From the IMG/VR virus record IMGVR_UViG_3300032561_000012, positions 20,543 to 84,542 of that record: a stretch of DNA of 64,000 nt; one strand, given 5' to 3'. Source of the DNA: a virus. The notes below the pieces were generated by a model. The model worked only from the letters and a program-made list of their open reading frames with translations. It did not search any database and was not told the DNA's origin. The position numbers and the translations under genes are program-made. Below, piece after piece: positions 2,648 to 57,566 of the stretch (the first letter of the stretch is position 1; each line of letters begins with the position of its first letter).

Positions 2648-5600
2648 TTATGTCTCAGTGTAAATTGTTACATTGCCTTCAGTGGCTATCATCATATTTA
2701 TCGCATTTTCAGTTGTTATAGCATTATTCATTCCTGGAATTATATTGCTATAAGTTGCTGGGTATGCCTTCATAACGTTTGCAGCCAATGTATCGCTGCC
2801 ATTCAACCCTGTACCATCTAGGGCTGTACCAGTACCGTTGTTGTAGAATACATTAGCATAGGTAATTAGATTACCGTAAGTGGTATTTGGTATTATTTGA
2901 CTAGCACTAGCATCAAACGCACTAGCACCAGCAAGGTGTGTAGCAGCCGCTGTGCCTTGTGTACCTCTACGTATTTGTCCTAGAGTATTTGTTACTACGT
3001 TAGCAGTCCAGTAAGTAATACGTTCAGCGTCAATGAATATCACACCAGGTTTTAAATTAACTGGGTCTGGCATAGTCAGTGCAGCCGCGTTAGCAACAAA
3101 AATATTGCCGTCTGTTAGGCCTAAACTATGTGTTAGTACAGTTGTGTTGGCGCTGCTGATACGTAGATAACTAGGTTTGTTAATCATGTTATCAAATATT
3201 CTATAGCCTAAAGTAACATTAGCACCATTTACAGTTACATTTGAAGTATAGATACGCATGTCTAATGTGTCAAATGTAATACCTGGCACTAGTTCTTCTG
3301 GAGCATGGCTATAGTATCTGTCAATATATTGTCCGCCACTTAGAACGATCTCTTCTGGTGTATTACCAGCCAGTTCCTCTGTGACATAGTTACTTTGATA
3401 GATTGTATCTAGAACATTAGTTGACAGTAAAGGTATACCGTCTTGGCTGTATTGTACGCTGTCATAACTGCTAAGGTCCCATGTGCGACCAAATCCTGGA
3501 CTTAGATCAAATCCTGCGCCAACCACTGGGCTACTTGGATATGTAATACCAGTTAGCAGTTGATCTAATGCATTGTATGTTGCTGTAATAGTAGTATCTG
3601 TAGCCAAGCTGACGTTGACACTTAGTGAAATTTGTGTTACACTAGTAATAACATTGCTCAAGTTAATTGTAACATTAGAAACTATGTTAGTAATGTATCC
3701 TGCTGTGACATTAGCACCACTGATAGTCATACCTTTTAATAGGTTACTTGCTGGGAACACATAGATAGTATTTGCACTTACCGCTGCATTAGCTACAGTA
3801 ATTGGCACTGTAATTGTGTCAACCACTGGCATTACATTGCTAGGTTCATAGTAACCTACAATACGATCACTGGCATTAGTAAACAGGTTAGCCGCATATA
3901 CTGTATAATCGCCTGAGAAGAATGTTCCAGATGTAATTATATTTGATTTAACCTGATATGCTTGACGTACTAGTACATTACCTTCAGGTTGTGCATAGGT
4001 TACAATTTGTCCTGCAATGTAATTGGTATATGGTTGCCATTGCTGAACTGTACTTGAATATGTAGTACGGTCAAATTTGATTGCTGTGTCAAAAGTTCTA
4101 ACCAATGGGTAAGCATTACCAGTTAGTAACGGTGTGTTGTTAGTGAATGGCAATTTAACCAATTGTGCATAAGCAGTAGCTGACACACTTGAGGTACCGT
4201 TAATAGTAACCACAGGTGTGGTAATATATCCGCTACCTGGGTTAGTAACTGTGATACTAACCACAGTTAAATTAGCATTACCAGTAACCGGTCCGCTCAT
4301 AACTGCGGTAGCAGTTGCTCCTGATCCTTTACCGTCAACACTTGAAATAGTTACCTGAGGAACAAAACTATAGTTTGCTCCTGTTGTTTCTACTATAACT
4401 GCACCGACCTGTAGTGTACGGTTATCGTACCATTGATTATAAGGGAATGTCTGCCAGGTAGCTTCATCTTCGCTGGTGTATGGTACTTCGCCGCTTGGAC
4501 TACGGAATATGCCGTAGCCTGTGCTGGTGTCATAGTATGCTGGCAAATCAAAGTCAGTAACACTACCACTATAAGTATCGTTGCCGGTGTAGTCAATTAA
4601 GTATTCACGTACTTTAGTTCTATATGGTTTTACTTCGTTAATATAGTCTTGATAGTAGGTTTGATTATCAACAATATAACTTGGGAATTGGCTTAGTGTA
4701 CGCAATTTGTGTGTTACACTGATAAAACTTGATTTAAATAGCCAATCAACATAGTTTTGTTCTGTTAGCAAGTAGTTTACTAAGATAAAGAACAAGTTAT
4801 TAAATTCACCTTGTAATTGGTCAATAAAGATATCATTGTTCAGCGCCTGTACAATAGCACGAATTTCATTGTTAGGGTCTTGGTCAAATCTGCTACTGTC
4901 AAAGTCTTGATTACCAAAACCTAAGGCATTATTAACAAAGTCACCAAGGCTGGTATTTAATTGTATAGTACCGTTTTGAATACCAACTACTTGGAATGTG
5001 CCATCAGTATTAACAACAAACAATCTCCAAGTACCATTACCAGTGGCATCACTTACATAGATGATTTCACCAGCCGCTGGTTTCAATGCCAAAGCATCAT
5101 TGGTTGTCATTACAGAAAAATTAGGTTTAGTTGCTGCACTATATCCTGTAGCATACCAATCAGTGTAGGTCCAATACAAGCTAGTCTTGTAGGCCTGTAC
5201 TTGTTCAATCTGCCAAAGTTTATCGGCAGTTAATACATACAACACCCAAAGACCGTTTTGTGTACTGTCGCTGGTCACTAATACCAGATAGCCCGGTGCT
5301 AATGACATAGTATCAATATAATTTAATTCTTCAACTGTTGATACACTTTGATCGTATGCACCCAATTTGTAATCAGGTTGCGGATCTTCTGCATACATGC
5401 CTGCTAGACTGTATTGTTCAACAATAGGATTAGCAATTAAAATACTATTTGCATACTGTACCATTTCTACCACAGCGGTTAGTCTGCCTTTGAACATACT
5501 TTGTCTTGGGCGTATGTCAATACCATAACGATCAGCGTCGCTGAGTGTTGGATCAGGTACTGTTTGACCAATGCTGTCTAATCCAGCCAAACTGTCAACT

Positions 5601-8600
5601 AGTTTATTGACAATTTTTACAGGTATTGGGTCACTAGGATTACCTTTTTGTACTAGTTCGTATTCGCTGTGTATCATATCACTGTTGATCAACAGTTGAT
5701 AGTCTAAGTGCATGATGGTATTGTCAGCTGACAAGTACGATCCTACATTGTAGAATGCAATGGCCTGCGGACTGATTACCGCTGCATAAGCTAGGCCTTG
5801 ATTCTTAGGATTCTGTATATAGTCTGCTATCACACTAGTAGGCAAATGTCTAGTAGGATTATTAGGATCTACAGTAGTTTTGCCTGTGACCCAATAATAG
5901 TAGTTAGTAGTGATAATATTTGTAGTTGGATCTACATAGGTAATCTCTACATAAGCACTGTTATCAGCATATTTAGGTTGACCGTCGCCACCGTTAGCCA
6001 CGTACTGACTTGGTAGGTAGATACTCTTTACCCACTCACAAACTTCAATAACAGCACCTGGGAATAAATTACCCCAATTGATACTACGATATGTTATTTT
6101 ATCATTGAGGTTAGTATCTTGTTCATAGTCTATGTAGCGAACTTGACTTAGGTTCCACCAAACTCGCCCAACTTGTAGATCACCCCAGTAGACATTTGAA
6201 TTGATGTCTGCATTGGCATTAGTACCTACATTGTATTGTGCAGGATCATATTCTGTCTTGTAACTGATTTCTTGCTCAGCTTCGCCTAGTATACGACCTT
6301 TAGCTGGATCAATGAATTGTAGATCATCAATAATTGTATTGGTTAGATTATTGTATAGATATGCTCTGGTTAAACTGTCTGGATCAACTTTAGCCTGTTG
6401 ATATCTAATCAATCCCCAACCGCGAGCCAGCGTTGGGTTTTCAAATATGTACACAGCGCCTGTGCCGCTAGGTTCACCATTGACTGTAGCACCTGGTGCC
6501 GAAACAACAACAAAGGTTTCTTTAACATCAAGAGAGTAACCAAACTCTGCACCTGATGCTAATAGTCCTGGATCTAGGTTTTGACAGTATTGATATCTAC
6601 CTGGAGTATATACGTCATCGCGCGGATCATCGTACAGTTCATAAATGTAAGTACTACCACTGCCAGGAATACTGTCAAACCATTTGGTTGTGGTACGATC
6701 AAATGTAGTACTGTTAGTAGTAGTAGCAACATCAAATGTAGTGTATCTATGTGTAGTACCACGTGCCGCACCAATAACCAACATGTAGGCATTTTGTGCA
6801 ATCTTAACTTGGCTACCAAAGTATTCGCCAGGTTGACCAAATGGATTAACAATAATCTGCATGAATGCGAATAGTCTAAGGTCAGCATCAGCATATACAC
6901 CTGGACTACCAGGAGTACGTATACCTGACAGAATACGCAGTTGGTCTTTAGCTACAGTAACATCTGAGTTTAAGCGCAATAGACCATTTTGATTGACCGC
7001 ACTAACACCTAAGATTTGTGCATCGTTAACATCTTTAACAATACTGTCTAAGCTGGCCATTGGGTAAGCTGTGGTTGTAATTGATGTGTTAGCCCAGATG
7101 TGGCTGTTATTATTCCATACTGGATTTACAATAGCAACAACATTAGCACCTGTTGAACTTTGGCCATAGTTGAATAAGATATTACCAGTGTAGTTTGTAA
7201 CTGTGACAAATTGACTATTGGTTACGTTGGCCAATACTACTACATTAGCATAAACTCCACTGCCTTGATTTTGACTGATGGTCTGACCAGCCACGGCTGT
7301 GATATTACTGCTGAGTGCTAGTATATTAGCCGCCTGTCCGTTATAGGTCGTTGGCATCATACGTGCTGATACAATAACTTCAAAGTTTTGTAAACGTATA
7401 CTATCGCCAGGTGTGAATACTGGATTTACAGCATAGCCAGTGTTGGTACCGTATAAGCGACCTCTGTTATGGAATTTCCAAATAGCACCACTGTTGTATT
7501 CTGTACCATTGGCATAGTAAGGGGCACCTGTATAGATTGCACAGTTAATACCGCAAACTGTTAGACTGGTACCAAATGCTGCACCTGCTTGTAAGGCTGT
7601 TAGAGTATTTTCTAAGCTGTCAACTCCAATTAATCTTTCTAATAGATTAAAGTCATTGACTTCAATGTATAACACATGACCTACTTCTGGTGGGTCAATA
7701 AATTCAATAGTATAAGTACCTGTTACTGTGTAGTTAGTAACTTCATTACCGTCAATAGTTACTTTATAAACTGGACCAATTGGATTTCTAGTTGTGTAGA
7801 TTAATCCACCTGTGGTTTTAAATGCTTCTATCACACGATCGTAGATGTAAATACAACCTGCACCTACTAGTAGATTGCCACCTTCGCCTGCTACAGTATC
7901 ACCAGGTGCACCAATAGCAATCTGTGCGCCATCAAAGCTAGCTGACAGTGAGTGACCAAAATTAGCAAAGGTATTTGCTGGATTTGGATTTTGAATATTC
8001 TTAACTAGTTTATAGTAAGGTTGTTGCACAATACTGATGTCACTTTGTACTACATTTGCAGTAAAGTAAACTGTACTACCACTTAAGGTATAGTCTTGGT
8101 TAGGAATATATGTTTTGTTACTGCTGGTAATTAATAGCGATGTAGCATCGTTAGCGGCATACGGAGTAAATGTCAACGGAATACTATTAGTAACACTGGC
8201 ATTTACAACATTAGTTACATAAACTCCTGCATCAACACTTTGAATGCTGATATTGCCAGCTACATAGGTGTTGCCAATTAAGACATTAGAGCCTATGGCA
8301 AAATTGCTAACTAAATTTGTCAATACAACTACACTAGAATTACTTACTGTTGCAGCCAATGAGCCTTGTGCGCCTGACACTGATTGGTTAATCAATTGAG
8401 TAGCTGTTGCTGAAATATTACCGCTGAGAGTTAGGGTAACTTGATCTTTAACTGACACTGTTTGTTGTTGGAATGGAACAAAACGACTTAGGCCGTAGGC
8501 ATAAACATTGTTGTTACCTGCCGCTCCCACGTATAACCATTCACCGTCTTGATTAAACTGTATGCTAGACCCAAACAAATCACCTACATTGCCACCTACT

Positions 8601-11600
8601 ATGATTTGCTTACGATCAAATGTACTTGAACTTACAGTCTTGCTGTAGATGTACACATATCCTGTATTGCCTGAAGTACCGCTGTTAGGTGCCCCCACAG
8701 CCAATACATCACTGTTATTAGCATCAACAGATAAGTCTACAGCCTGACCAAATGCGCTGGTGTTTGTACCAAGTGGTTGTACAGTTACACCTTCAGCAAA
8801 CGTGCCTGCGTAATTTTTTAAGAATGTGTTAACAGATCCCACGCCGTTTAAAGCAGTTGGCGATCCCACAGCTACCACAAGGTTGTCTGCGCTCATAGCT
8901 ACGCTAGTGCCAAAACCGTCGCCTTGGGTGTATTCATTAACACCTTTAGTCACCTGTTGTGTGAAATTCCAAGGATGTGCTTTTTCATAGACATTCCAAA
9001 GATGTTCAACTGTAGCCACAGGACTTCCCATGGCCAATGTTGTAGCGGCATTATCATCAATCCAGATCTTTTCTCCTACTTGCCATCCGTGTGGCGGATT
9101 ACCTGCATAACCATATAGACGTGCATCTTCCATGTATTGGAAACGCATACTGTCTAATCTATATAAGATACCAGACCCTGTTTGTGTAGTCAGTGATGAG
9201 ACGTTTGAAGGACTACCAAGATATTTTACCATGATGTTGTTGAGATCAACAACTTTGTACACTTGATAGAAACCATCAAATGCTGTGCTAAAATTCTTAA
9301 TTAAAAACACACTGCCTTCAGTAGTGGCTGTACCTGCTACAAAATTATGCGGTGCTTGTGTGGTAAAGGTAATATAATTGTTTAGACTATTAGCTACCTG
9401 AGTTACCAAATTGTTTGTTTCAGTTACACGATAGACATTCCAATCACGTTTAAAGTCTTTGGCTACCCAAATACGATATCCACTGCCCATGCTGGCAATA
9501 TTATTGTCTAGGTCAACGTAATTAGCAAGATCAAATATAGTTAGATCAACGTCTTGTGAGTTAACATATCCTGCTGTAGGAATATCGTTGTCATAGTTAC
9601 TGTGACTGGTTCTAATTAAAGCAATGTTGCCATTATAGGTACCGTATGATCCATATAGTTGACTTTGATTGAATACAGCAACACCATCACCTAGATTATT
9701 ATTTTCTGCTGTGACAAACTGCGCTACACTTGGGTTTACACCAAATGCTTTTTCATTCAATGGAATTTCAATATAAGGATTGCTGTCTAGTGCTCCGTAA
9801 GCACCCACACGTATAGCCCACTCTTCATAGAATTTAATGTCACTGGTCAAGTTATTAAATGTAGCACGCAACATTTGATTAACAGCATTTGCTGAACCTT
9901 TTTGTGCAATATACCCTTTGTAGAATTCTATTTGTGTGGTTTTAGTTAGGCCCAGGTCACTAAGATATTGACGAGGCTTGTAGCCAATTAATGTATGGCT
10001 GTAAGTTAAATTGTCTTTGTCTTTGATCTCACCGTAGCTGTCATAGTATGACTGTGCTTCTACAGCCAATGTTGAGAAGTTAGGTAATAGGCCTTTTTGT
10101 ATTTGATTGCTGGTCAACTGACTCCAATATTGGAATTGGAAAGTTGGGCTAGCAATGATATCTTGCAAGGCTGTATAGTATTGACTCTTGTATTCAACGA
10201 TATCACCTTGAAGGTAATCTTGTCCTTGATTCCAACTGTCGACTACACCTGAACTATAGATAAATCCAGGAGCATATAAACTACCGTCCCACGCAGCAGT
10301 TTTCTGACCAATTAGTTTTAGACGGTATTGACGATTACCTGTTTCTGGTTGATATATCACATCATCAAACACTGTGGTGTTGTCAAATATCAAAATATGT
10401 TCGTACTGTACTAGGTCAACTTCAACATATCCAATAACACTTGCTGGATCAGTCAGTGATAATTTAAATGTTGTAGGAGTACGTAAGACCGAGTAGTTGT
10501 TATTTCTAACTAGGTTAAAGTTTTGATCAATAACTTTACTACCGTACTGACTATCAGTAATACCAGCAGTAATACTGTTGACACTGATAGCAGTTAAAGT
10601 ATCTGCCACAGGACTTAAGACTAAGATACTACCTGGTTTCCAGCCCTGTTGTGCCCAGTATAAGAATTCTTTAACTGATAAGTTCCAGTCACGTATTTCA
10701 CCTAAGTTAGGATCTACAAGTCCAAATGTAAAGCCCTGTGCTACCAAATAACGTTGGTAGCTGATTAAGAAGTCAGCTATCTGTTGTTGTGTGCTAAATT
10801 CAAAACCGTATGGAACTTTTAGTTTTAAGTTTTGATAGTTATTGAATAGTGTAGCTGTGCTGTTCAACACTGTGGTCTTATTAGCATTACTATTAACCAC
10901 ACTAGGGATAATTGTAAAGTAACTGTTTTGTAAATCATAGCCACGAACACTGTAACCATTTGTGGTCTTTTCTACAATAACTGCACTGTAGATTAATTTA
11001 CCTACAGGTACTGGGCCTTCTACAGTCCATACTTTGTAGTTTTCGTTAGGTATGACAATACTGTTATTAGTACTGGTTGGACTGACCTGTTCTGCTAATA
11101 CCTCAAGATATTTTTGATCAGTGAAGCCTGCAGCCGCATAGGCTAGGTTAACAGTAAATGATTTAATAAATGGGCTGATGTATGATTCAGGATTGATACC
11201 TTGATTACGTAGGTATTCTGCTATCCAGTTAATGTATCCTGCACCACGATACACTGTGCCTGAGCTAGTATCACCATTGAAGTCAACTTGATCTTGTGTT
11301 ATGTGATGATTAGTGTTACGTGTTAAATACTGCTCTGACCCTATCACTAATCCACTGCTAGTATCTTGAAGAGTGTTTAATTGATTAAATTGAGAATAAT
11401 TGTAAGTATCAATCAACAACCCAAAATATTTACCTGGTTTAGCCAGTGCAATAGCCTGTTGAACTGCGTATGGGAATTCGCTACTTGAGCGCCAAGCATA
11501 CTCTACTGGACCATATTGGCCCACTGCCCAACTCTGTGCCATTTTTCTGCTGTTGATTGATTTGGCCATTATCTGTGCTGGACTTAGCAAGTTACCGTTT

Positions 11601-14600
11601 TGATCTACAGGGATGACCTGACTTAGGCCAGGGCGAACATAGTGCGGATCAATACCTGCTCTAGCACCTTGTACAATCAACCCAGCTTCTAGGTCATTCC
11701 ATAGTAATGTGTTACCGCCGGTATAAGGTGCAGGACCGTAATAGCTTTCCCACCAAGTAGGCATAGTAGCAAACCCTAGCATTTCCCATGGTGTTAGGTG
11801 TGGGCGTAGTGTGTCGTAGTAGTATTGATAGCAAGCACGCCACGATCCTGGTAGAGCCTCACCAGTAAGTTTATCAGGTTGGCCAGCATAGTTCCAAGTA
11901 AAGCTGTCATTGCTTTCAAATGTACTGTTGGTGCTGAAATCTAATTTATTATTACCAATCCAATTTAAGAAACTATTTGATGCCAGTTGATTGATTTCAG
12001 CCAGGCTATATGCTTCAGGTACACGTCTAAATTTGCCTGGTACCACTGATAAGATATCACCGTAGGTACCTGTATCAGGTAGTTTAATATTGTTGAATAT
12101 ACGTAGTTCTAATTCTAATAAGAACTGATCTCTATAGTCATTGAACACAGGTGTTACACTGCCATCGTGGCCGCGTATAACATCTGTAGGTGTTCTATAG
12201 GTATTGTCATAGAATACTTCTGGTACATATGGTGGCCATAAGCCTAACTTAGTAGGAGTTTCTGGAATATAGTTACCATCAGTGTTGCTGTATTCGTTGA
12301 TGGTAATAATGTCACCAACATTTAATGTTGTTAAGAATGTTATTGCTGGTACTGTTGAACTAAATTCAAAGTCTTGATTATTGACCACTTGCTGACCATT
12401 GACATAGACTAATACTGCTTGATTGCTTAACTGTTGGTCGTTGAATACGTTAGTTAATTGATAGTCAGTGACTAAAGGATCAAATACAGTATAGGTTAAG
12501 GTAGTCTTTAATGGACCATAAGGTACCATGTCACTGTAGTAGAATGGGAATGATTTATTCTTAACAGCATTGATCTTAGTTAAAATTAAATCAACACTGG
12601 CCGCAGGATCTGTAGGAATAATACCTGGTAAACTAACTGCTAGTTCTAAAAATTTATTTTTAAATTTAGTATATTCTTGTTGAGCAAAGCGCAAGGCATT
12701 GATAAAGTTAGCGTTGTCATCTACTAGGAATATTGACAGTGGTGCAGGTGCTGAGTGTTGTAGCAGTGTACCGCCTTGGGCTTTGATATCAATATCACGT
12801 AGGTTACTACTGCCAAGAATATTACCTATAACTGAATTGCTGTTCTGTGCCAGCGCAACTAAATGGTTACGAACCTGTCCTAGGGTCAATGTATTAATAT
12901 CTACGTTCTGTGCATTAACGTCTAGATTCTGTGGTACTTGGTAGAAGCCAAGTTGGCTGACTTGATCACTATAGACTAGAATATCAATTTGGTCACCAGT
13001 GGTCAGTGTTGCAGAAACTGTAACTGCACTATTGGCCAACGCCCATTGACTAGATTGTAAGTACGTGTAATTTTGAAATACTTTTAAGTAAGGTATAGTT
13101 GCAGATGTATTTGGTACTACATCAATAGGGAATGAGCTAGTAGTACCATCATAGGTATAGCTGATCTGTTGATACTGTTTACTGTTTTCTGGAACTGTCT
13201 TCCAGGTATTTTTAGGTTGCAGTGTTTGGCTGTCAACTATAGTTTGTAGATAGCCAAGGTTAATTAGCTCTGTTTGTACTACTCCAGAAGCATCTGAATA
13301 GGTAAATGAGTCTGTGTTAAAGTAATTTTGAAACTCAATATCGCCTTGGGTACTGAAGTTTCTATAGGTCAATGAGAACCCTAGTACAGGATCAACAAAG
13401 CCAGTGGAATTAACTAAATACCCAAATAACCAAGTACCTTTAAATGTACTTCTAGTATAGGTAGAAAAACTCTTGCCACTAACATCTAACACTTCAAATA
13501 GCGGAAATTGATTAACCGCGGTCTTTTGTTGGCTGCTATTCCATTGCACACCATTGTACCACCACTCACTACCTGCGTATTGACCAGTTGCTACTGTGGT
13601 AGTATCATATGGTAATACATCTCCGTCTGCAGCTTTGACTAATTCAATATGATATGGACCTGTAGGTGCTCCATCTAGATCAACTGAATACTGTACTAGT
13701 TTGACCAGATAAATCTTATTCTTAACCAATGGATCTTGATCAGCAGCAAATATCACACGCAGGCCATTGGGGTATATTGGTTTACCGTTAGCGTCTAATA
13801 ATGGTATACCAAATGCAGTTGAATATGTCTGGCCTTGCAGTTGCGTAAATGCATCTGTGGTAGTGGTGTCTAAAATATCAATCGCATCTAGTCCACGGCG
13901 GCCATAGTTAAACAATAATGTATCTGCATCAAATTGAATAATAGGTCGTTGGCCACGAGAATTTTGGTCAAATGATGGTAGTACACCATTGTAGTTTGCT
14001 GTGGCAGTGATAACGTCAACATGGAACCAACGATTGTTACGTGACCAAGCATTACGATCTACACTACTGCGATTAATAGTAATGTAGTCTGGGAACAAGG
14101 TATTAGGATACAATAAAGTATTTTCTTTAATGTAGGCCTCTGGGGTTATCATTTGGTCTACAGGGACTAAACGTATACCACTGTTGTATAATGCTTGATT
14201 ACCAACTTCTTCTACGTAGTATTGATTATTTTGATATTCAGCTGGCGTTACATCTGTGCCAAATTGAATTTTTAATCCTGAAGTAAAATTAACTCCATTT
14301 GGACTAGTATAATTTTGTTGTCCTAGGATGTCAGCATCTACATCAATGGCCCAGTTGTTGTATTCAACAACTTTGATCTTTTCAAAAATATTATAATTTG
14401 TGCCGTCTTGTATCCACAAGGTATCTAGGCCAGCAGTTAACAGCGGCATTGGATAGAATAACCCGTCAAGATCTTTGTAGAATTCTCTGTTGGCATTAAC
14501 TACACCAAATTTAATGTAGACCTTTTGATTCACTGCCACTGCTTGATCAGGAATTAACTGTATTAGTAGGTCATTAGTGCCATCTGCATTTTTAATTCCT

Positions 14601-15658
14601 GCATCAACTAACACAACTTTCCATACGTTGTATCTCAACGATGAGCTGACAATAGTACCTGCGTTATAACCTGGTACTACATTACCTGAGTGATCATGTA
14701 CTACTGGAGCAGTCCAATCAGCATCGCCACCTTTGTGTGGCCAAGTGCTGACACTAGAAAAAACTAGTTTCTTACCTGTGAGCTGTTGAACAATACCGTT
14801 GTATTGTGGGTACTCTGTAGTAAACTGACTGACTGTTTTATTCTGCCAGGTATTGTATGGTACTGGCGTAGAGTAGTCTATATTGTCTACTACCTGCATG
14901 CCTGAGAACTTGTCTTGTGCCGTGCTTTGCGGAACATTGAATGAAATAGTACCAACATCAATACCATTGTTAGTTACGCCATAGACGTCGCGTGAGCTGA
15001 TAGTAGGAGTAGCATTTACTTTACCTGCTAGAGCTAGATTGCCTCGTTCGCTTTGAATCCAAAAAGGTACACCAGGTTGATTGACTATAAATTTATACTC
15101 GCCACCGCGTGCCAGAGTAATACTATAGTCTACTGTGCCAGTCTGATCAGTAAAAATATACTGAAGATTGTTAGGATCACGAGTGACTGTGTATGTTGTA
15201 GTCAGTGGCAGACCTGAGGTGTTAACAGCCACAGCATCAGGACCATTAGGCAACCAGTAGTATTGACTAAAGTTAACAAACTTGTCATATGAAATTAATG
15301 GATCAAAACTGTAGTATTCTTGTTCCCATAGGCGACTTTGATTATTAGTGAATCCGCCATAGTAATTGATTTGATTTAGTAAATCGCGATAGCTAGCAAA
15401 GAATTTAATATTCTGTTGTTGATCTTTGATTACCAAGCTAGGTTCAAGCTGATAGTCTTGACGATCAGCTGTAGGTTCAATTATGTAGCTATCACCGCTC
15501 TTATATGTAGGAGCAAATGTGCGTCCTATGTAACCATATAAGTTTGTTAAATTAGGTTCACTGACCAGTTGATCCATTGTAGCTGATAAGAACTTTTGAT
15601 TCGTATCAGTTTGGAATACACTAGGTAAAAATTTAAGCGTTTTTCTTGTTACGGCCAT
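2648..15658 (-). CDS. Giant baseplate-wedge-associated structural protein (4336 aa)
   Basis: A single frame of 4336 codons directly after gp6, the position gp7 occupies in T4 (T4 gp7 is about 1000 residues). The N-terminus (LPSVFQTDTNQKFL, then TADRQDYQLEPSL and YYWLPNGPDAV within the first 150 residues) resembles large gp6-linked structural proteins of marine T4-like phages as I recall them. Between about residues 2240 and 3060 there are at least six FG-GAP-like repeats (GFGTSVAMSADN, LFGSSIQFNQDG, FGHSLSASFDG, AFGTSLTVCG, YFGSQVKIAQN, EFGYSLDVKE), each followed by an aliphatic-Gly-(A/S)-P-like turn, implying a beta-propeller. Near the C-terminus is an IRRGTQGTAAATHLAG motif seen in other large phage structural proteins. 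It is probably a peripheral wedge or fibre-anchoring component. Equivalence to gp7 is inference. No frameshift interrupts it. Confidence 0.75.
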   Translation of the reverse strand: MAVTRKTLKFLPSVFQTDTNQKFLSATMDQLVSEPNLTNLYGYIGRTFAPTYKSGDSYIIEPTADRQDYQLEPSLVIKDQQQNIKFFASYRDLLNQINYYGGFTNNQSRLWEQEYYSFDPLISYDKFVNFSQYYWLPNGPDAVAVNTSGLPLTTTYTVTRDPNNLQYIFTDQTGTVDYSITLARGGEYKFIVNQPGVPFWIQSERGNLALAGKVNATPTISSRDVYGVTNNGIDVGTISFNVPQSTAQDKFSGMQVVDNIDYSTPVPYNTWQNKTVSQFTTEYPQYNGIVQQLTGKKLVFSSVSTWPHKGGDADWTAPVVHDHSGNVVPGYNAGTIVSSSLRYNVWKVVLVDAGIKNADGTNDLLIQLIPDQAVAVNQKVYIKFGVVNANREFYKDLDGLFYPMPLLTAGLDTLWIQDGTNYNIFEKIKVVEYNNWAIDVDADILGQQNYTSPNGVNFTSGLKIQFGTDVTPAEYQNNQYYVEEVGNQALYNSGIRLVPVDQMITPEAYIKENTLLYPNTLFPDYITINRSSVDRNAWSRNNRWFHVDVITATANYNGVLPSFDQNSRGQRPIIQFDADTLLFNYGRRGLDAIDILDTTTTDAFTQLQGQTYSTAFGIPLLDANGKPIYPNGLRVIFAADQDPLVKNKIYLVKLVQYSVDLDGAPTGPYHIELVKAADGDVLPYDTTTVATGQYAGSEWWYNGVQWNSSQQKTAVNQFPLFEVLDVSGKSFSTYTRSTFKGTWLFGYLVNSTGFVDPVLGFSLTYRNFSTQGDIEFQNYFNTDSFTYSDASGVVQTELINLGYLQTIVDSQTLQPKNTWKTVPENSKQYQQISYTYDGTTSSFPIDVVPNTSATIPYLKVFQNYTYLQSSQWALANSAVTVSATLTTGDQIDILVYSDQVSQLGFYQVPQNLDVNAQNVDINTLTLGQVRNHLVALAQNSNSVIGNILGSSNLRDIDIKAQGGTLLQHSAPAPLSIFLVDDNANFINALRFAQQEYTKFKNKFLELAVSLPGIIPTDPAASVDLILTKINAVKNKSFPFYYSDMVPYGPLKTTLTYTVFDPLVTDYQLTNVFNDQQLSNQAVLVYVNGQQVVNNQDFEFSSTVPAITFLTTLNVGDIITINEYSNTDGNYIPETPTKLGLWPPYVPEVFYDNTYRTPTDVIRGHDGSVTPVFNDYRDQFLLELELRIFNNIKLPDTGTYGDILSVVPGKFRRVPEAYSLAEINQLASNSFLNWIGNNKLDFSTNSTFESNDSFTWNYAGQPDKLTGEALPGSWRACYQYYYDTLRPHLTPWEMLGFATMPTWWESYYGPAPYTGGNTLLWNDLEAGLIVQGARAGIDPHYVRPGLSQVIPVDQNGNLLSPAQIMAKSINSRKMAQSWAVGQYGPVEYAWRSSSEFPYAVQQAIALAKPGKYFGLLIDTYNYSQFNQLNTLQDTSSGLVIGSEQYLTRNTNHHITQDQVDFNGDTSSGTVYRGAGYINWIAEYLRNQGINPESYISPFIKSFTVNLAYAAAGFTDQKYLEVLAEQVSPTSTNNSIVIPNENYKVWTVEGPVPVGKLIYSAVIVEKTTNGYSVRGYDLQNSYFTIIPSVVNSNANKTTVLNSTATLFNNYQNLKLKVPYGFEFSTQQQIADFLISYQRYLVAQGFTFGLVDPNLGEIRDWNLSVKEFLYWAQQGWKPGSILVLSPVADTLTAISVNSITAGITDSQYGSKVIDQNFNLVRNNNYSVLRTPTTFKLSLTDPASVIGYVEVDLVQYEHILIFDNTTVFDDVIYQPETGNRQYRLKLIGQKTAAWDGSLYAPGFIYSSGVVDSWNQGQDYLQGDIVEYKSQYYTALQDIIASPTFQFQYWSQLTSNQIQKGLLPNFSTLAVEAQSYYDSYGEIKDKDNLTYSHTLIGYKPRQYLSDLGLTKTTQIEFYKGYIAQKGSANAVNQMLRATFNNLTSDIKFYEEWAIRVGAYGALDSNPYIEIPLNEKAFGVNPSVAQFVTAENNNLGDGVAVFNQSQLYGSYGTYNGNIALIRTSHSNYDNDIPTAGYVNSQDVDLTIFDLANYVDLDNNIASMGSGYRIWVAKDFKRDWNVYRVTETNNLVTQVANSLNNYITFTTQAPHNFVAGTATTEGSVFLIKNFSTAFDGFYQVYKVVDLNNIMVKYLGSPSNVSSLTTQTGSGILYRLDSMRFQYMEDARLYGYAGNPPHGWQVGEKIWIDDNAATTLAMGSPVATVEHLWNVYEKAHPWNFTQQVTKGVNEYTQGDGFGTSVAMSADNLVVAVGSPTALNGVGSVNTFLKNYAGTFAEGVTVQPLGTNTSAFGQAVDLSVDANNSDVLAVGAPNSGTSGNTGYVYIYSKTVSSSTFDRKQIIVGGNVGDLFGSSIQFNQDGEWLYVGAAGNNNVYAYGLSRFVPFQQQTVSVKDQVTLTLSGNISATATQLINQSVSGAQGSLAATVSNSSVVVLTNLVSNFAIGSNVLIGNTYVAGNISIQSVDAGVYVTNVVNASVTNSIPLTFTPYAANDATSLLITSSNKTYIPNQDYTLSGSTVYFTANVVQSDISIVQQPYYKLVKNIQNPNPANTFANFGHSLSASFDGAQIAIGAPGDTVAGEGGNLLVGAGCIYIYDRVIEAFKTTGGLIYTTRNPIGPVYKVTIDGNEVTNYTVTGTYTIEFIDPPEVGHVLYIEVNDFNLLERLIGVDSLENTLTALQAGAAFGTSLTVCGINCAIYTGAPYYANGTEYNSGAIWKFHNRGRLYGTNTGYAVNPVFTPGDSIRLQNFEVIVSARMMPTTYNGQAANILALSSNITAVAGQTISQNQGSGVYANVVVLANVTNSQFVTVTNYTGNILFNYGQSSTGANVVAIVNPVWNNNSHIWANTSITTTAYPMASLDSIVKDVNDAQILGVSAVNQNGLLRLNSDVTVAKDQLRILSGIRTPGSPGVYADADLRLFAFMQIIVNPFGQPGEYFGSQVKIAQNAYMLVIGAARGTTHRYTTFDVATTTNSTTFDRTTTKWFDSIPGSGSTYIYELYDDPRDDVYTPGRYQYCQNLDPGLLASGAEFGYSLDVKETFVVVSAPGATVNGEPSGTGAVYIFENPTLARGWGLIRYQQAKVDPDSLTRAYLYNNLTNTIIDDLQFIDPAKGRILGEAEQEISYKTEYDPAQYNVGTNANADINSNVYWGDLQVGRVWWNLSQVRYIDYEQDTNLNDKITYRSINWGNLFPGAVIEVCEWVKSIYLPSQYVANGGDGQPKYADNSAYVEITYVDPTTNIITTNYYYWVTGKTTVDPNNPTRHLPTSVIADYIQNPKNQGLAYAAVISPQAIAFYNVGSYLSADNTIMHLDYQLLINSDMIHSEYELVQKGNPSDPIPVKIVNKLVDSLAGLDSIGQTVPDPTLSDADRYGIDIRPRQSMFKGRLTAVVEMVQYANSILIANPIVEQYSLAGMYAEDPQPDYKLGAYDQSVSTVEELNYIDTMSLAPGYLVLVTSDSTQNGLWVLYVLTADKLWQIEQVQAYKTSLYWTYTDWYATGYSAATKPNFSVMTTNDALALKPAAGEIIYVSDATGNGTWRLFVVNTDGTFQVVGIQNGTIQLNTSLGDFVNNALGFGNQDFDSSRFDQDPNNEIRAIVQALNNDIFIDQLQGEFNNLFFILVNYLLTEQNYVDWLFKSSFISVTHKLRTLSQFPSYIVDNQTYYQDYINEVKPYRTKVREYLIDYTGNDTYSGSVTDFDLPAYYDTSTGYGIFRSPSGEVPYTSEDEATWQTFPYNQWYDNRTLQVGAVIVETTGANYSFVPQVTISSVDGKGSGATATAVMSGPVTGNANLTVVSITVTNPGSGYITTPVVTINGTSSVSATAYAQLVKLPFTNNTPLLTGNAYPLVRTFDTAIKFDRTTYSSTVQQWQPYTNYIAGQIVTYAQPEGNVLVRQAYQVKSNIITSGTFFSGDYTVYAANLFTNASDRIVGYYEPSNVMPVVDTITVPITVANAAVSANTIYVFPASNLLKGMTISGANVTAGYITNIVSNVTINLSNVITSVTQISLSVNVSLATDTTITATYNALDQLLTGITYPSSPVVGAGFDLSPGFGRTWDLSSYDSVQYSQDGIPLLSTNVLDTIYQSNYVTEELAGNTPEEIVLSGGQYIDRYYSHAPEELVPGITFDTLDMRIYTSNVTVNGANVTLGYRIFDNMINKPSYLRISSANTTVLTHSLGLTDGNIFVANAAALTMPDPVNLKPGVIFIDAERITYWTANVVTNTLGQIRRGTQGTAAATHLAGASAFDASASQIIPNTTYGNLITYANVFYNNGTGTALDGTGLNGSDTLAANVMKAYPATYSNIIPGMNNAITTENAINMMIATEGNVTIYTET
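2695..2702 (-). promoter_or_regulatory. Late promoter (GATAAATA) for the 2645 fibre gene
   Basis: GATAAATA on the minus strand, in the 3' end of the giant gene and 49 nt before the fibre ATG. It would uncouple fibre expression from the 13-kb gene upstream. Confidence 0.55.
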
Positions 15659-53243: not shown

Positions 53244-53804
53244 ATGACTTTTGATCAATTCAAAGTCATAGACAACTTCATACCTTTGTCACTACAAGAA
53301 CAAATAAAGTCAACACTACTGGGACCAAAATTTGCTTGGTTCTACACTGTAGATGTGACTTATAACGCAGATGCTCCTATAGATCGTAGAAATCCAGGAT
53401 TTAGCTACTTGTTTAATCAGAATGATAGTATAGCTCCAGACATTGCAACATTGGCCTACACTGGCGCAATGACAGCAGGAGTGCAATATACAAATATCCT
53501 GCAGGCACGAGCATTCTTGCAACTGCCGCTAAGTGATAGATTTTTAACCGCAGGTGTTGATCCTTTACATGTTGACACTCAAACTCCACATTTAGTGGTG
53601 TTGTATTACGTTGTAGATTCAGATGGCGATACTCTACTAACTAACAGCACTCACAGTGATAGCTTACAGGTCGAAGATCATACTATCATAGCACGAGTTA
53701 GTCCTAAACAAGGCAGGGCACTGTTATTTGATGGCGGCTTGTATCACACAGCAGAACAACCAAAAGACAATGTTCGCTGTGTTATTAACCTGGACCTAGC
53801 TTAA
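53244..53804 (+). CDS. 2OG-Fe(II) oxygenase-like protein
   Basis: 186 residues from ATG 53244; in-frame upstream codons lie inside the S74 gene and are not used. The iron triad of a 2-oxoglutarate dioxygenase is visible: H109 and D111 in DPLHVDTQTPHLVVLYYV, and H168 in LFDGGLYHTAEQP, with R178 in NVRCVINLDL as the likely 2OG-binding Arg. The proline-hydroxylase/PKHD-like layout suggests hydroxylation of a protein side chain. It ends at the late promoter of the Asn-Cys cassette and is cotranscribed with the fibre genes, so fibre proteins or the cassette products are plausible substrates. The substrate is unproven. Confidence 0.78.
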   Translation: MTFDQFKVIDNFIPLSLQEQIKSTLLGPKFAWFYTVDVTYNADAPIDRRNPGFSYLFNQNDSIAPDIATLAYTGAMTAGVQYTNILQARAFLQLPLSDRFLTAGVDPLHVDTQTPHLVVLYYVVDSDGDTLLTNSTHSDSLQVEDHTIIARVSPKQGRALLFDGGLYHTAEQPKDNVRCVINLDLA

Positions 53805-53827: not shown

Positions 53828-54115
53828 ATGGCAACAACATTAGGCAATGGAATAGTAACATTTGGAGATGGCACTCGTTTGGGGTCAAACGTCATTCCTT
53901 ACGGTAATATTACCAACCCTAAAACTAACCTTACACAGTTTACTAACGATTTAGGTAACTATGGTAATTTTCTTACAGCTAACTCAATTAATACTACTCA
54001 GATTAATACAGGCGCATGGGCTAGTATGTATCTTACTTTGACTAACTGTGGAAGTAGTACTACATTGGGGTTAGCTACAGATAACTGTAATTGTAATTGT
54101 GCATGTAACTGTTAG
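53828..54115 (+). CDS. Asn-Cys-tailed small protein 1 (candidate modified peptide precursor)
   Basis: 95 residues in two parts. Residues 1-55 (TTLGNGIVTFGDGTRLGS, then NLTQFTNDLGNYGNFL) match a module of T4-like fibre proteins. The C-terminus is NCNCNCACNC, reached after LTNCGSSTTLGLATD. The tail is written as alternating AAY and TGT codons plus one GCA. Such a conserved front with a short repetitive Cys tail, next to a radical SAM/SPASM gene, resembles the leader and core of a RiPP precursor, but the leader here looks structural. Good TAGGAGA site; 9 nt to the next paralogue. Confidence 0.72.
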   Translation: MATTLGNGIVTFGDGTRLGSNVIPYGNITNPKTNLTQFTNDLGNYGNFLTANSINTTQINTGAWASMYLTLTNCGSSTTLGLATDNCNCNCACNC

Positions 54116-54124
54116 GAATAAGTA

Positions 54125-54403
54125 ATGTCAACAACGTTAGGAAATGGTGTAGTAACTTTTGGAGATGGAACTAGTTTGCGCAGTTCACAGATTCAACTGG
54201 CCAATGTCAGCGGAGCGCCAACTAATCTTAGTGGGTTTACTAACAATTTAGGTAACTATGGTAATTTTATAGATGCTACAATAATTAACACAGCCAGCAG
54301 TGGATATTATAGTGCAAGTGAATATGGTCCTAAATTTTTAAATTGGAACGGTAATACTCTGCAGATAACAGCTAGTAACTGTAATTGTAATTGTAATTGT
54401 TAG
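54125..54403 (+). CDS. Asn-Cys-tailed small protein 2
   Basis: 92 residues, a paralogue of the previous gene: TTLGNGVVTFGDGTSLRSSQ, NLSGFTNNLGNYGNFIDA, a divergent middle (GYYSASEYGPKFLNWNGNTL) and the tail SNCNCNCNC. No other Cys occurs in the protein, so all four Cys are in the repeat. The first 35 nt of the conserved TFGDGT block are identical at DNA level to the third paralogue, implying recent duplication or conversion. Separated by 9 and 8 nt from its neighbours, with weak ribosome sites (AGGAATA). Confidence 0.72.
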   Translation: MSTTLGNGVVTFGDGTSLRSSQIQLANVSGAPTNLSGFTNNLGNYGNFIDATIINTASSGYYSASEYGPKFLNWNGNTLQITASNCNCNCNC

Positions 54404-54464
54404 GATAATATATGTCAGACATACTAGGCAATGGTGTAGTAACTTTTGGAGATGGAACTAGTTT
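54143..54464 (+). repeat. 35-nt perfect direct repeat in paralogues 2 and 3
   Basis: Copies at 54143-54177 and 54430-54464 are identical and encode the NGVVTFGDGTSL block. The flanking sequence diverges, which fits tandem duplication followed by drift or selection. Confidence 0.85.
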
Positions 54465-54759
54465 AAGTAGTGCTGTCATTCCTTGGACTAATTTTACCAG
54501 TCGCCCAACACAGTTAAGTCAGTTTACCAATGATTTAGGCAACTATGGCGCTTTCTTGACCACTACCGCTAATGTTTTCACTGGTGACAGTGGGTACGGT
54601 GCAGGCAATGAATTTGACAATCCCAACGGTACTGTTAATGCCTGCGGTAGTGGACGCGGGGGTATTGGTCACTTAACCAGCGGAGTATGGAGTCTGACAT
54701 GGAATGGTACCTATCCGGGGCTAGCTGTTTATAACTGTAATTGTGCCTGTAACTGTTAA
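54412..54759 (+). CDS. Asn-Cys-tailed small protein 3
   Basis: 115 residues. MSDILGNGVVTFGDGTSLSS, then PTQLSQFTNDLGNYGAFL shows the same front domain as the two genes before it. The middle differs (GDSGYGAGNEFDNPNGTV, a single NACGSG Cys, VWSLTWNGTYPGLAVY) and the tail is NCNCACNC. The middle could be a separate beta domain that carries the tail. It is followed by 50 nt without a clear terminator and then the 254-aa gene. The tails of all three paralogues end exactly with NC and the stop codon, so the repeat is terminal in each. Confidence 0.72.
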   Translation: MSDILGNGVVTFGDGTSLSSAVIPWTNFTSRPTQLSQFTNDLGNYGAFLTTTANVFTGDSGYGAGNEFDNPNGTVNACGSGRGGIGHLTSGVWSLTWNGTYPGLAVYNCNCACNC

Positions 54760-54809: not shown

Positions 54810-55574
54810 ATGGATTTTTATGCATTAACCACAAATAGAATATTACCAACTAATGATATTAGTATTGTTGGCGATACACTAACTATTAATATTTCTGATG
54901 TAACTATGGCCAATAGTTTTGGTAATACCAGTACATCAGATAGTTTTAGTTTGTCTAATTTGATTAGTAACTATGCTGTAGATCACGGTTGTATTGCTAT
55001 AATTCCTCAAGGCATGCAGGCCAATGCTAGAATGATGACCATAGAAACAACCCAACTCAGCCTAGTAGAAAAGGCTGCACCAGGTAGCAGCTACACATCA
55101 TATCAAACCACTGAAGGCAAACACTATGCTGGTAGTCCTTACAGCGTTATTGACAGTCGTTATCGTTCATACGGATATGTGTATATTCTAACACCAAGAA
55201 TTAACTGTACAGTAGATGAATGTTCAGTGATCTATAGAGACTCAAACGCTAATGTAACTGTTAATGGTAGTCAAATAACCCCAACAGCCTCAATAACTTC
55301 AACACATGCTTTCTTAGCCAATTGGATGCCCATTACTATCAGTGGCGGCTCTACAATTACAGCAGGCGATACTGCTACATATACCGTATCAGGTACAGCT
55401 AATACAACAATCTATGTCAGCGCAGACATTGGCACAGTTAATCGTGGGCGAGTAGCAGAAGGCGGGAGTTTTCAATTAAACACAGCAGGACTCGAAGCTG
55501 GTGAAACTGTGACAATCAAAGTAGGCTACAAAACTTGGAGTGGAGTAGCAACTAAGGTGGTAACTCTTGAATAA
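54810..55574 (+). CDS. Beta-rich protein of the Asn-Cys cassette, function unknown
   Basis: 254 residues with an AAAGGAC site. MDFYALTTNRILPTNDISIV and GDTLTINISDVTMANSF suggest a virion-type beta protein. The middle has GCIAIIPQGMQANARMMTIE and RYRSYGYVYILTPRINCTVD. The C-terminal 80 residues (GGSTITAGDTATYTVSGTAN, GGSFQLNTAGLEAGETVTIK, then VGYKTWSGVATKVV) look like an Ig-like domain. I do not recognise the family. It lies between the tailed proteins and the oxygenase/radical SAM pair, and its stop overlaps the oxygenase start by 8 nt. It may carry, or be bound by, the modified proteins. Confidence 0.65.
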   Translation: MDFYALTTNRILPTNDISIVGDTLTINISDVTMANSFGNTSTSDSFSLSNLISNYAVDHGCIAIIPQGMQANARMMTIETTQLSLVEKAAPGSSYTSYQTTEGKHYAGSPYSVIDSRYRSYGYVYILTPRINCTVDECSVIYRDSNANVTVNGSQITPTASITSTHAFLANWMPITISGGSTITAGDTATYTVSGTANTTIYVSADIGTVNRGRVAEGGSFQLNTAGLEAGETVTIKVGYKTWSGVATKVVTLE

Positions 55575-56205
55575 CATAGTTTCACTATGGCCAACTAATG
55601 TTCTTTATGAGCAACAGGCTGTTGAAGCTACACAAGATTTTTTGTCTGAAATCTTAGCCATTGGCGAAGAATACGAACTACAACACCCAGAAGCCCACGT
55701 GCCTGTGGCTATGCGCAAAAACAAAGAAAATGTCTACAACTTACTCGCAGATCCTCGTCCAGCCTGTCAACTATTTAAACAGATGCTAAAGTCGCGTATG
55801 CTAGACCTAGCGGGCGTAGAAGGATTTTTAAACACTGTAGAATTTGAAGCTGTTACTAGCCTGCGCAAGTTTGCTCCAGGTGATTATGCTAAACCACACA
55901 ATCACCGTAGTGTGGACTATGTGGCAGTGTTGTGGTTAGCATTAGAAGACACAGATCCGCCAAGCAATAACACACATCAACGCATGACAGGTAATCGTTT
56001 TCATATGATTGATCCAATGCCCTCACGCAGCAGATTTTTAAATCACACTATGTTATTCCCTGTGAGTCCCCGTCCTGGTACCTTTCTAATACACCCAGCA
56101 TCAACATTTCATACTACAGAAGCCAACCTAGGCTCAGTGGATACCATAGCATTGGCTACTAATATCAAAGTTATAGACCCAGCCAGGAACTACGTTACTT
56201 TATAA
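55567..56205 (+). CDS. Putative 2OG-Fe(II) oxygenase
   Basis: 212 residues starting at TTG 55567, with AAGGTGG upstream inside the preceding gene. The opening SLWPTNVLYEQQAV is typical of the phage oxygenase type that starts with a (F/W)PTxV strand. Metal-ligand candidates are H111 and H113 in AKPHNHRSVDYVAVLWLALE and H182 in RPGTFLIHPASTFHTTEAN. The 2OG-binding Arg normally near the last strand is not obvious (VDTIALATNIKV), so activity or cosubstrate could differ. It ends by overlapping the radical SAM ATG by one base, which argues that the two act on the same product. Confidence 0.62.
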   Translation: MNNIVSLWPTNVLYEQQAVEATQDFLSEILAIGEEYELQHPEAHVPVAMRKNKENVYNLLADPRPACQLFKQMLKSRMLDLAGVEGFLNTVEFEAVTSLRKFAPGDYAKPHNHRSVDYVAVLWLALEDTDPPSNNTHQRMTGNRFHMIDPMPSRSRFLNHTMLFPVSPRPGTFLIHPASTFHTTEANLGSVDTIALATNIKVIDPARNYVTL

Positions 56206-57566
56206 TGGCTAAATTTACTATCCGTGCAGTAAAACCTATTACTAACGAAGAATACACATTTGTGTATGATAATCTAACATCTGAAATATTTGACAGCACT
56301 GGCACTAGATTAGAGTTTAAATCAACAGAAACAATCAACTACGGTACAGTTTTTGCTACTAGTCAATCAACCCCAGCTGGTAAATCACATGATATTACCT
56401 CACTTAAAATACAACTAGGATTGAGTTGCAATTACGAATGTGTATATTGTAGCCAACGGTTCGTGCCTAAGGCAGATGAAACCAACAAAGATGATGTCGG
56501 CCCATTCTTAGCTGAATTGCCTACATGGTTCAATGGTGGTGATGGTACAGGAATTAAAGTTGAATTTTGGGGAGGTGAGCCATTTGTCTATTGGAAAACA
56601 CTTAAACCCTTGGCAGAAGGCATACGTAATTTATACCCAAACATTAAATTTGGCATAGTAACCAATGGTACTCTATTAGATCTAGAAAAGAATCAATGGC
56701 TAGATGATCTAGGATTTAGTGTAGGTATTAGCCACGACGGCCCTGGATACCATGCTCGCGGATTAGATCCGTTTGATAATCCAGAACAGTTTGCTATGAT
56801 CATGGACTTGTGGAATAGATTAAATCCTAGTCGCCGCATAAGTTTCAATGCAATGGTTCATAAAAATAATTCAAGTAGAGCGGCGATTGTTGATTGGTTT
56901 AAAGATCGCCTGGGAGTTGAAGTACCAATGGGCGAAGGTGCTTTTATTGATCCCTATGACGAGGGTGGTGCTAGTCTATGTATGACAGACCCAGCAGAAC
57001 ATGTTGCTTATAGAGTCAATAGTTTTAAAGAATTACGTAACAACCAAGGTACAAATTTGGATGTAGTACGTAGAAGAATCAGTGATTTTATTCGAAGTAT
57101 AGTAACACAACGCCCAGGCACAGCACTAGGGCAAAAATGCGGCATGGATAAACCTGATCAACTAGCAGTAGACTTAACAGGTAATGTGCTGACCTGTCAA
57201 AATGTGTCAGCAGTGGCCACAAGCTTCAATGGTGCTAGTCACCAAATTGGACACGTTAAAGATTTTGACAATATCAAACTCAAATCATCAACACATTGGA
57301 GTCACAGAGCTGAATGCCCTAACTGCCCGGTACTACAGATCTGTCAAGGTAGTTGTATGTTCCTAGAAGGTGACATGTGGAACCTAGCCTGTGACAATGC
57401 CTACAGTGATAATATTCCTTTCTTTATGGCCGCCTGGGAAATACTCACAGGCACAATTCCCTACTATATCGATGGGCCACAAGCAGAAGCACGCAAAGAC
57501 ATTATTGGTACTGTTAACGGAATCCCCGCTAAAAGAACTAAAATAATCCCTATAATCGCTGAATAA
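56205..57566 (+). CDS. Radical SAM/SPASM peptide- or protein-modifying enzyme
   Basis: 453 residues. The SAM cluster motif is CNYECVYC (C75, C79, C82), and WGGEP lies at 122-126. The C-terminal SPASM domain is complete in Cys spacing: C312-x13-G-x4-C331, then CPNCPVLQICQGSC (C371, C374, C380, C384; CX2CX5CX3C) and C396. This arrangement matches sulfatase-maturase-type and peptide-maturase enzymes that carry two auxiliary clusters and act on Cys, Ser or other residues in peptides. An N-terminal region of about 65 residues precedes the barrel and could bind substrate. With three Cys-repeat proteins just upstream, those tails are the obvious candidate substrates. Start ATG overlaps the oxygenase stop (TAATG). 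The reaction is unknown. Confidence 0.88.
   Translation: MAKFTIRAVKPITNEEYTFVYDNLTSEIFDSTGTRLEFKSTETINYGTVFATSQSTPAGKSHDITSLKIQLGLSCNYECVYCSQRFVPKADETNKDDVGPFLAELPTWFNGGDGTGIKVEFWGGEPFVYWKTLKPLAEGIRNLYPNIKFGIVTNGTLLDLEKNQWLDDLGFSVGISHDGPGYHARGLDPFDNPEQFAMIMDLWNRLNPSRRISFNAMVHKNNSSRAAIVDWFKDRLGVEVPMGEGAFIDPYDEGGASLCMTDPAEHVAYRVNSFKELRNNQGTNLDVVRRRISDFIRSIVTQRPGTALGQKCGMDKPDQLAVDLTGNVLTCQNVSAVATSFNGASHQIGHVKDFDNIKLKSSTHWSHRAECPNCPVLQICQGSCMFLEGDMWNLACDNAYSDNIPFFMAAWEILTGTIPYYIDGPQAEARKDIIGTVNGIPAKRTKIIPIIAE

Follow-up and report, generated by a model that had tools for sequence, protein, structure and literature searches.

The chemistry of radical S-adenosylmethionine (SAM) enzymes, including the welding of residues, has been described chiefly for small natural-product peptides and for a few enzyme cofactors. 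In the streptococcal ranthipeptide NxxcA, a short bacterial peptide with a leader, a radical SAM enzyme of the SPASM type (NxxcB) forms a single bridge between Cys23 and the C-beta of Asn20, i.e., from i to i+3 (PMC8326336). Freyrasin, matured from PapA by PapB, carries Cys linked to Asp (PMC9413430); PapB sets several rings in one substrate, accepts nested rings and works on Cys-X3-Asp/Glu motifs with the help of a leader and an RRE, the recognition element of ribosomally synthesized and post-translationally modified peptides (RiPPs). CteB, which matures the small clostridial SCIFF peptide CteA, has a full RRE domain and an Aux I cluster with three Cys ligands, whose free site is taken by a Cys of the substrate (PMC6231123). 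QhpD makes Cys-Asp/Glu bridges within an enzyme subunit, that of quinohemoprotein amine dehydrogenase, and thus inside a functional protein and not a diffusible peptide. Here, we analyzed a window of 64,000 nucleotides (positions 20,543 to 84,542 of the virus record IMGVR_UViG_3300032561_000012), in which three tandem paralogous genes, P1 to P3, end in Asn-Cys repeats (NC tails) and are followed by a gene for a radical SAM/SPASM enzyme. The best explanation of the whole, to which we give a probability of roughly 0.6, is that this enzyme forms thioethers within the tails and thereby hardens the tip of a phage fiber.

The locus shares with NxxcA/NxxcB the enzyme class and the combination of Cys and Asn; an Asn(i)-Cys(i+3) spacing occurs in every NCNC, and (NC)n amounts to overlapping NxxC motifs. 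It differs in that the candidate substrates are C-termini of phage proteins with 3-10 Cys, in which the bridges are predicted. PapB supplies the best specific family model and CteB the closest re-aligned structure, and QhpD is the nearest parallel for thioethers within a functional protein, although its target is neither viral nor a terminal repeat. Phage fibers with a C-terminal Peptidase_S74 domain or collagen-like repeats share the fiber modules and the genome position; their C-terminal device is different and comes with no radical SAM enzyme, and in relatives such other ends, often of the S74 type, occupy the place of the NC tail. No published account of Asn-Cys tails or of radical SAM-modified virion proteins was found in a search limited to an open library with few subscription journals or preprints. 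The tails, the selection on them, the class of the enzyme, its two-way association with the tails, the exchange of heads and the placement of Hint domains, as described below, were all read from sequence comparisons.

Asn-Cys tails of three paralogues

The genes and tails are as follows.

53828..54115, plus strand: P1, NC-tail paralogue of 95 residues with a conserved head, a variable middle and the tail NCNCNCACNC
54083..54112, plus strand: P1 tail, NCNCNCACNC
54125..54403, plus strand: P2, NC-tail paralogue of 92 residues with the tail NCNCNCNC
54377..54400, plus strand: P2 tail, NCNCNCNC
54412..54759, plus strand: P3, NC-tail paralogue of 115 residues with the tail NCNCACNC
54733..54756, plus strand: P3 tail, NCNCACNC
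56205..57566, plus strand: radical SAM/SPASM enzyme of 453 residues, the proposed tail maturase, ~1.4 kb downstream of the tails

An initial annotation, made from the window's sequence, had marked 54061-54759, a span that covers P2 and P3 and starts inside P1. It correctly described the repeat as standing directly before the stop codon in each gene (TAG in P1 and P2, TAA in P3), the Asn codons as AAC or AAT, and one Ala in each of two copies, which are those of P1 and P3. It was equally right that the fronts are conserved and the middles unlike in sequence and length; by alignment, P2 and P3 are 54-56% alike to P1. Two of its statements hold within the window only: TGT encodes each of the 13 tail Cys here, but TGC is also used in relatives, and the tails here are strictly C-terminal, but those of relatives may be extended by a few residues, by additional Cys or by a Hint domain. 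Cys is the invariant residue of the tail, and the inner spacers are mostly Asn (259 of 369), followed by Ala (64) and Asp (30).

The same annotation had attributed the pattern to selection on the peptide and not to microsatellite slippage, and comparison of synonymous and nonsynonymous change supports this. Over the eight lineages in which P1, P2 and P3 each have an orthologue, the nonsynonymous-to-synonymous ratio (pN/pS), pooled over pairs, was 0.36 for the head, 0.55 for the middle and 0.05 for the tail; these are rough ratios, as synonymous sites are saturated. The tail Cys was never replaced in these lineages, its codon being TGT or TGC and that of Asn AAT or AAC, and tail length was fixed for each paralogue (10 residues in P1, eight in P2 and eight in P3). 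Lost or frameshifted tails, as neutral decay would produce, were looked for and none was seen among the eight. With one exception, variation was confined to the penultimate spacer, which can be N, A, V, Q, R or Y. Slippage can therefore be ruled out, because Cys stays and the repeat number is fixed despite saturated synonymous sites. P1, P2 and P3 were all present in each of nine related lineages counted. Trios of tandem NC-tail paralogues with heads unlike those of the window also occur elsewhere (L045, 4011-5090; L120, 9321-10104), so that a trio may be functionally required.

Association of tail and enzyme

Enzyme scans yielded 76 viral loci and 80 loci from bacterial genomes, to which the converse set described below and phage JWF were added. 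When enzymes distinct at 95% were counted and a gene with a Cys-x-Cys tail was sought within 8 kb, 114 of 130 had one, nearly always upstream of the enzyme. Six of the 16 remaining enzymes lacked upstream sequence, and of the ten others one (L018) has its tail just outside the fetched stretch, most of the rest being host-like orphans or fragments; L071, which had seemed tailless, has a Cys-rich stretch and a Hint domain. The tails are not a chance product of the test, because near the enzyme 207 of 4567 open reading frames (ORFs) on its own strand were positive, 205 of them upstream of it, vs. 12 of 4559 ORFs on the other strand. In the converse direction, a DNA pattern for (NC)4 followed by a stop was present in 50 contigs, 42 of which carried the enzyme at 3e-55 or better. 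Of the eight others, five had the pattern outside any ORF and three ended soon after the tail, so that among the 45 contigs with an in-frame (NC)4-stop ORF the enzyme was missing only from the three cut at the contig edge. Proteins with an FTNDLGNYG module, a fiber motif, offer a controlled comparison: the enzyme accompanied 19/19 uncut tailed cases vs. 0/33 tailless contigs, whose proteins had other ends, often S74-type by eye (Fisher p about 1e-14 if independent, which is only a guide for related sequences). Among 50,697 phage records, full-length homologues of the enzyme were found only in JWF (two records) and 2-1, and a tail was present in both phages.

Tail and enzyme are thus associated in both directions, the assignment of the tail as substrate is strong, and we consider it very likely that the enzyme acts on the tail. 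The initial annotation had likened tail and front domain to the core and leader of precursor peptides. The precursor idea gains from the maturase-like gene in the same gene block, which that annotation did not mention, and the likeness survives for the tail as core; the front domain fails as leader, as shown by the heads described below.

In three loci the NC-tail gene is followed by a tandem pair of unlike radical SAM/SPASM genes, of about 340 and 450 residues (L054, 4819-7215; L057, 4813-7215; L058, 1672-4015), perhaps for two reactions or as a hetero-complex. The phage-type enzyme was also met on contigs in bins of unlikely hosts, namely metagenome-assembled genomes labeled Akkermansia muciniphila (L152, L163) and Klebsiella pneumoniae (L195); these are probably misbinned phage contigs.

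The radical SAM/SPASM enzyme

The radical SAM motif CX3CX2C (C75, C79 and C82) is invariant in 39/39 homologues, and PF04055 matches above its cut-off. The seven-Cys SPASM motif, CX9-15GX4C-gap-CX2CX5CX3C-gap-C, is present (C312, G326, C331, C371, C374, C380, C384 and C396), with all seven Cys invariant among the same 39 homologues and TIGR04085 (SPASM) scoring 34.3 bits against a cut-off of 27. Its profile matches were to peptide maturases, the best specific model being the PapB ranthipeptide maturase (NF047865, 2.9e-16), with a score far under the family cut-off (59.6 bits vs. 340); the enzyme also matches phrog_1802 at 7e-63. A structure predicted without the JWF row was confident, with a predicted local distance difference test score (pLDDT) of 90.6. 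Its top Foldseek matches were anSME, ChlB, TigE, CteB, SuiB and SkfB, the epimerase EpeE was also among the structural matches, and on re-alignment CteB was best (Z 23.4, 359 residues, root mean square deviation 4.2). The first 60 residues of the model can be aligned with the N-terminal part of CteB, though they form a three-strand element without the helices of an RRE.

Three features of the alignment bear on the reaction. The 39 homologues lack the eighth SPASM Cys of anSME and conserve only seven, and Aux I would therefore have three Cys ligands, as in CteB and unlike the fully ligated anSME. The position aligned with Asp277 of anSME, which we take to be its catalytic base, is Gln in 38/39. 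Beyond the ten cluster Cys no other is conserved, the best other column having Cys in 10/37. Because of the three-Cys Aux I and the missing anSME base and epimerase donor Cys, we favor thioether rings, which the enzyme probably forms.

Heads and Hint domains

The tailed proteins fall into 15 unrelated head clusters, including long fibers and collagen-like fibers. About 23 switches of head label occur along a quick tree of the enzymes without separating tail and enzyme, so that the two travel as a unit and the rest of the protein is exchanged. Of ten relatives scanned, seven matched tail-fiber PHROGs (down to 3e-200), two tailed relatives carry collagen repeats, and heads reach about 1080 residues. 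A front domain serving as leader is rejected across clades, as no head is conserved among phages with homologous enzymes; since the 15 clusters are unrelated and often ordinary tail-fiber modules, the heads look like anchors of a structural protein and not like a recognition leader. P1 to P3 had no informative family match in profile searches of the window's proteins, and P2 as query found nothing in INPHARED; their assignment as fiber-type proteins rests on genome position and on relatives. Further Cys clusters inside proteins of other clades may also be modified.

Some fiber-type proteins have an intein-like Hint domain fused right behind the Cys-rich tail; they come from the phages JWF and 2-1, from Burkholderia paludis MSh1, from four Rhodospirillales loci and from one viral contig.

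L081, 9793-11244: Hint-bearing locus of phage JWF (gp028)
L225, 802-2244: Hint-bearing locus of phage 2-1
L071, 1790-2575: Hint-bearing locus
L171, L212, L215, L216, L219: further Hint-bearing loci

The domain begins with a CFPAGT-type start directly after the tail, as in the junction ...NCNCDCNCNCS|CFPAGTMVLMADG..., and matches PF05203 at 3e-12 in JWF and more weakly in others. These fusions lie in three parts of the enzyme tree; the window has no Hint block. JWF was considered as a case of an enzyme without a tail and was discarded, its tail being internal, ahead of the Hint domain. Hint domains cut at their own first Cys, and such processing would leave the tail C-terminal, which would fit a need for a free tail.

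Proposed mechanism and alternatives

We propose that the enzyme (56205-57566) would take the (Asn-Cys)n tails as substrate and join Cys sulfur to a side-chain carbon of Asn or Asp, or of another small residue, a few positions off, giving several thioether rings per tail. As the Cys-rich tail is the only constant among the substrates, the enzyme should recognize the tail itself. The tailed protein is short here and comes from the tail-fiber region, and in many relatives it is a full fiber, sometimes collagen-like and hence probably trimeric. The tail would probably lie at the fiber tip, where it might form a rigid, protease-resistant distal end serving receptor contact or fiber stability. That P1, P2 and P3 assemble as a hetero-trimeric tip is conceivable but doubtful. 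A wider claim, that tailed phages share a widespread, so far unrecognized virion-maturation system in which their own radical SAM enzyme builds several thioether rings in the C-terminal (Asn-Cys)n tip of fiber-type proteins, sometimes exposed by self-cleavage of a Hint domain and sometimes made of three dedicated paralogues, falls slightly short of an even chance in our estimate.

Several points weigh against ring formation as proposed. If the ladder were uniformly Asn(i)-Cys(i+3), the penultimate spacer, which faces the last Cys at i+3, should be kept, yet it is the least conserved position. PapB reportedly depends on a carboxylate acceptor (PMC9413430), and Asn dominates here. An invariant Asp near the first SPASM Cys, D315, could serve as a cluster ligand in place of Cys, and the "open" Aux I site would then be closed. 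Recognition would be unusual, with no conserved leader among the head clusters and no complete RRE in the model. Lastly, relatives of the enzyme (34-38% identical) in Bacteriovorax (L211, L214) and Variovorax (L217, L220, L221) have no Cys-rich tail nearby.

Among the alternatives, the tail might remain unmodified, a metal or disulfide knot that locks the fiber chains, with the enzyme acting elsewhere in the virion module, e.g., on the partner protein encoded behind P3. CxC repeats bind soft metals in general, and in the collagen-like heads a lock at the chain ends would make sense. The nearly exclusive link of tail and enzyme, which survives changes of head, makes this unlikely, as does the partner, which is swapped for an unrelated protein in one clade. 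Oxidation of the tail Cys to formylglycine, as by anSME, would equip the tip with several aldehyde groups, through which it could attach covalently to the host surface. Cys is what the tail never varies, and anSME ranks near the top of both the fold and the profile matches; however, the Gln at the Asp277 position and the missing eighth SPASM Cys render it quite unlikely, and the conserved Asn would go unexplained. A strict two-residue period recalls the 1,3-pattern of PoyD, which works without a leader (PMC8326336), and with EpeE among the structural matches one could imagine an enzyme that epimerizes every second residue, leaving an alternating D/L tail like polytheonamide that perhaps inserts into membranes. 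Peptide epimerases, however, rely on a conserved Cys to donate hydrogen (PMC8326336), for which there is no candidate here outside the ten cluster Cys, and proteusin epimerases carry only the radical SAM cluster (PMC8326336), so that epimerization appears very unlikely. Finally, the proteins might be cut to release a diffusible small RiPP, a signal or a bacteriocin, for which the head would be the leader as in classical ranthipeptide clusters. This is likewise very unlikely: short paralogues beside a maturase-like gene do resemble precursor arrays, but no peptidase or exporter was recognized in the cassette, the heads of relatives are fiber modules of up to about 1080 residues, and the placement of Hint domains implies that the tail stays on the head.

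If thioether formation on the tails is true, viruses would use radical SAM chemistry to harden or functionalize the host-contacting part of their particles, the orphan phage enzyme family phrog_1802 would be explained, and adhesion would gain a new covalent tip chemistry. Because the enzyme apparently gets by with a short tag at the terminus and without a common leader, it would be useful for stapling protein ends. Direct tests could use two cultivated phages, the Achromobacter phage JWF and 2-1, and likely prophages of cultured Limnohabitans.

Neighboring genes

P1 to P3 sit in the tail-fiber region of the 84.5 kb phage record, after a fiber protein with a Peptidase_S74 end. Gaps of 8-9 bases separate them, and they are followed in order by the partner gene, an oxygenase-like gene that overlaps it by 8 bases, and the radical SAM gene, which overlaps the oxygenase-like gene by one base.

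54810..55574, plus strand: partner protein of 254 residues with a C-terminal immunoglobulin (Ig)-like domain
55567..56205, plus strand: 2-oxoglutarate (2OG)-Fe(II) oxygenase-like protein (PF13759 at its cut-off; phrog_81)
53244..53804, plus strand: another gene of the 2OG-Fe(II) oxygenase type, immediately before P1, its link to the system uncertain

Of the 76 viral loci, about 40 have a partner homologue as the next gene after the NC-tail gene. A fold search against the PDB gave partial Ig-like matches with low TM-scores and no functional clue, and the only full-length structural matches were unnamed phage proteins. The partner is not universal: in one siphophage clade its place is taken by an unrelated protein (cluster 13) of about 232 residues (L028-L042, about 5303-6001), to which JWF gp029 is similar by eye. 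The oxygenase at 55567..56205 is common in the cassettes and is an accessory, optional member, because whole clades lack it; hydroxylation of Asn as one of its possible roles is speculation. The upstream gene at 53244-53804 matches phrog_274, named DNA endonuclease V, at 1.3e-29, yet it has the look of a 2OG-Fe(II) oxygenase (weak PF13640), and the name may be wrong. Elsewhere in the window, the minus strand holds a single ORF of 4336 residues (2648-15658).
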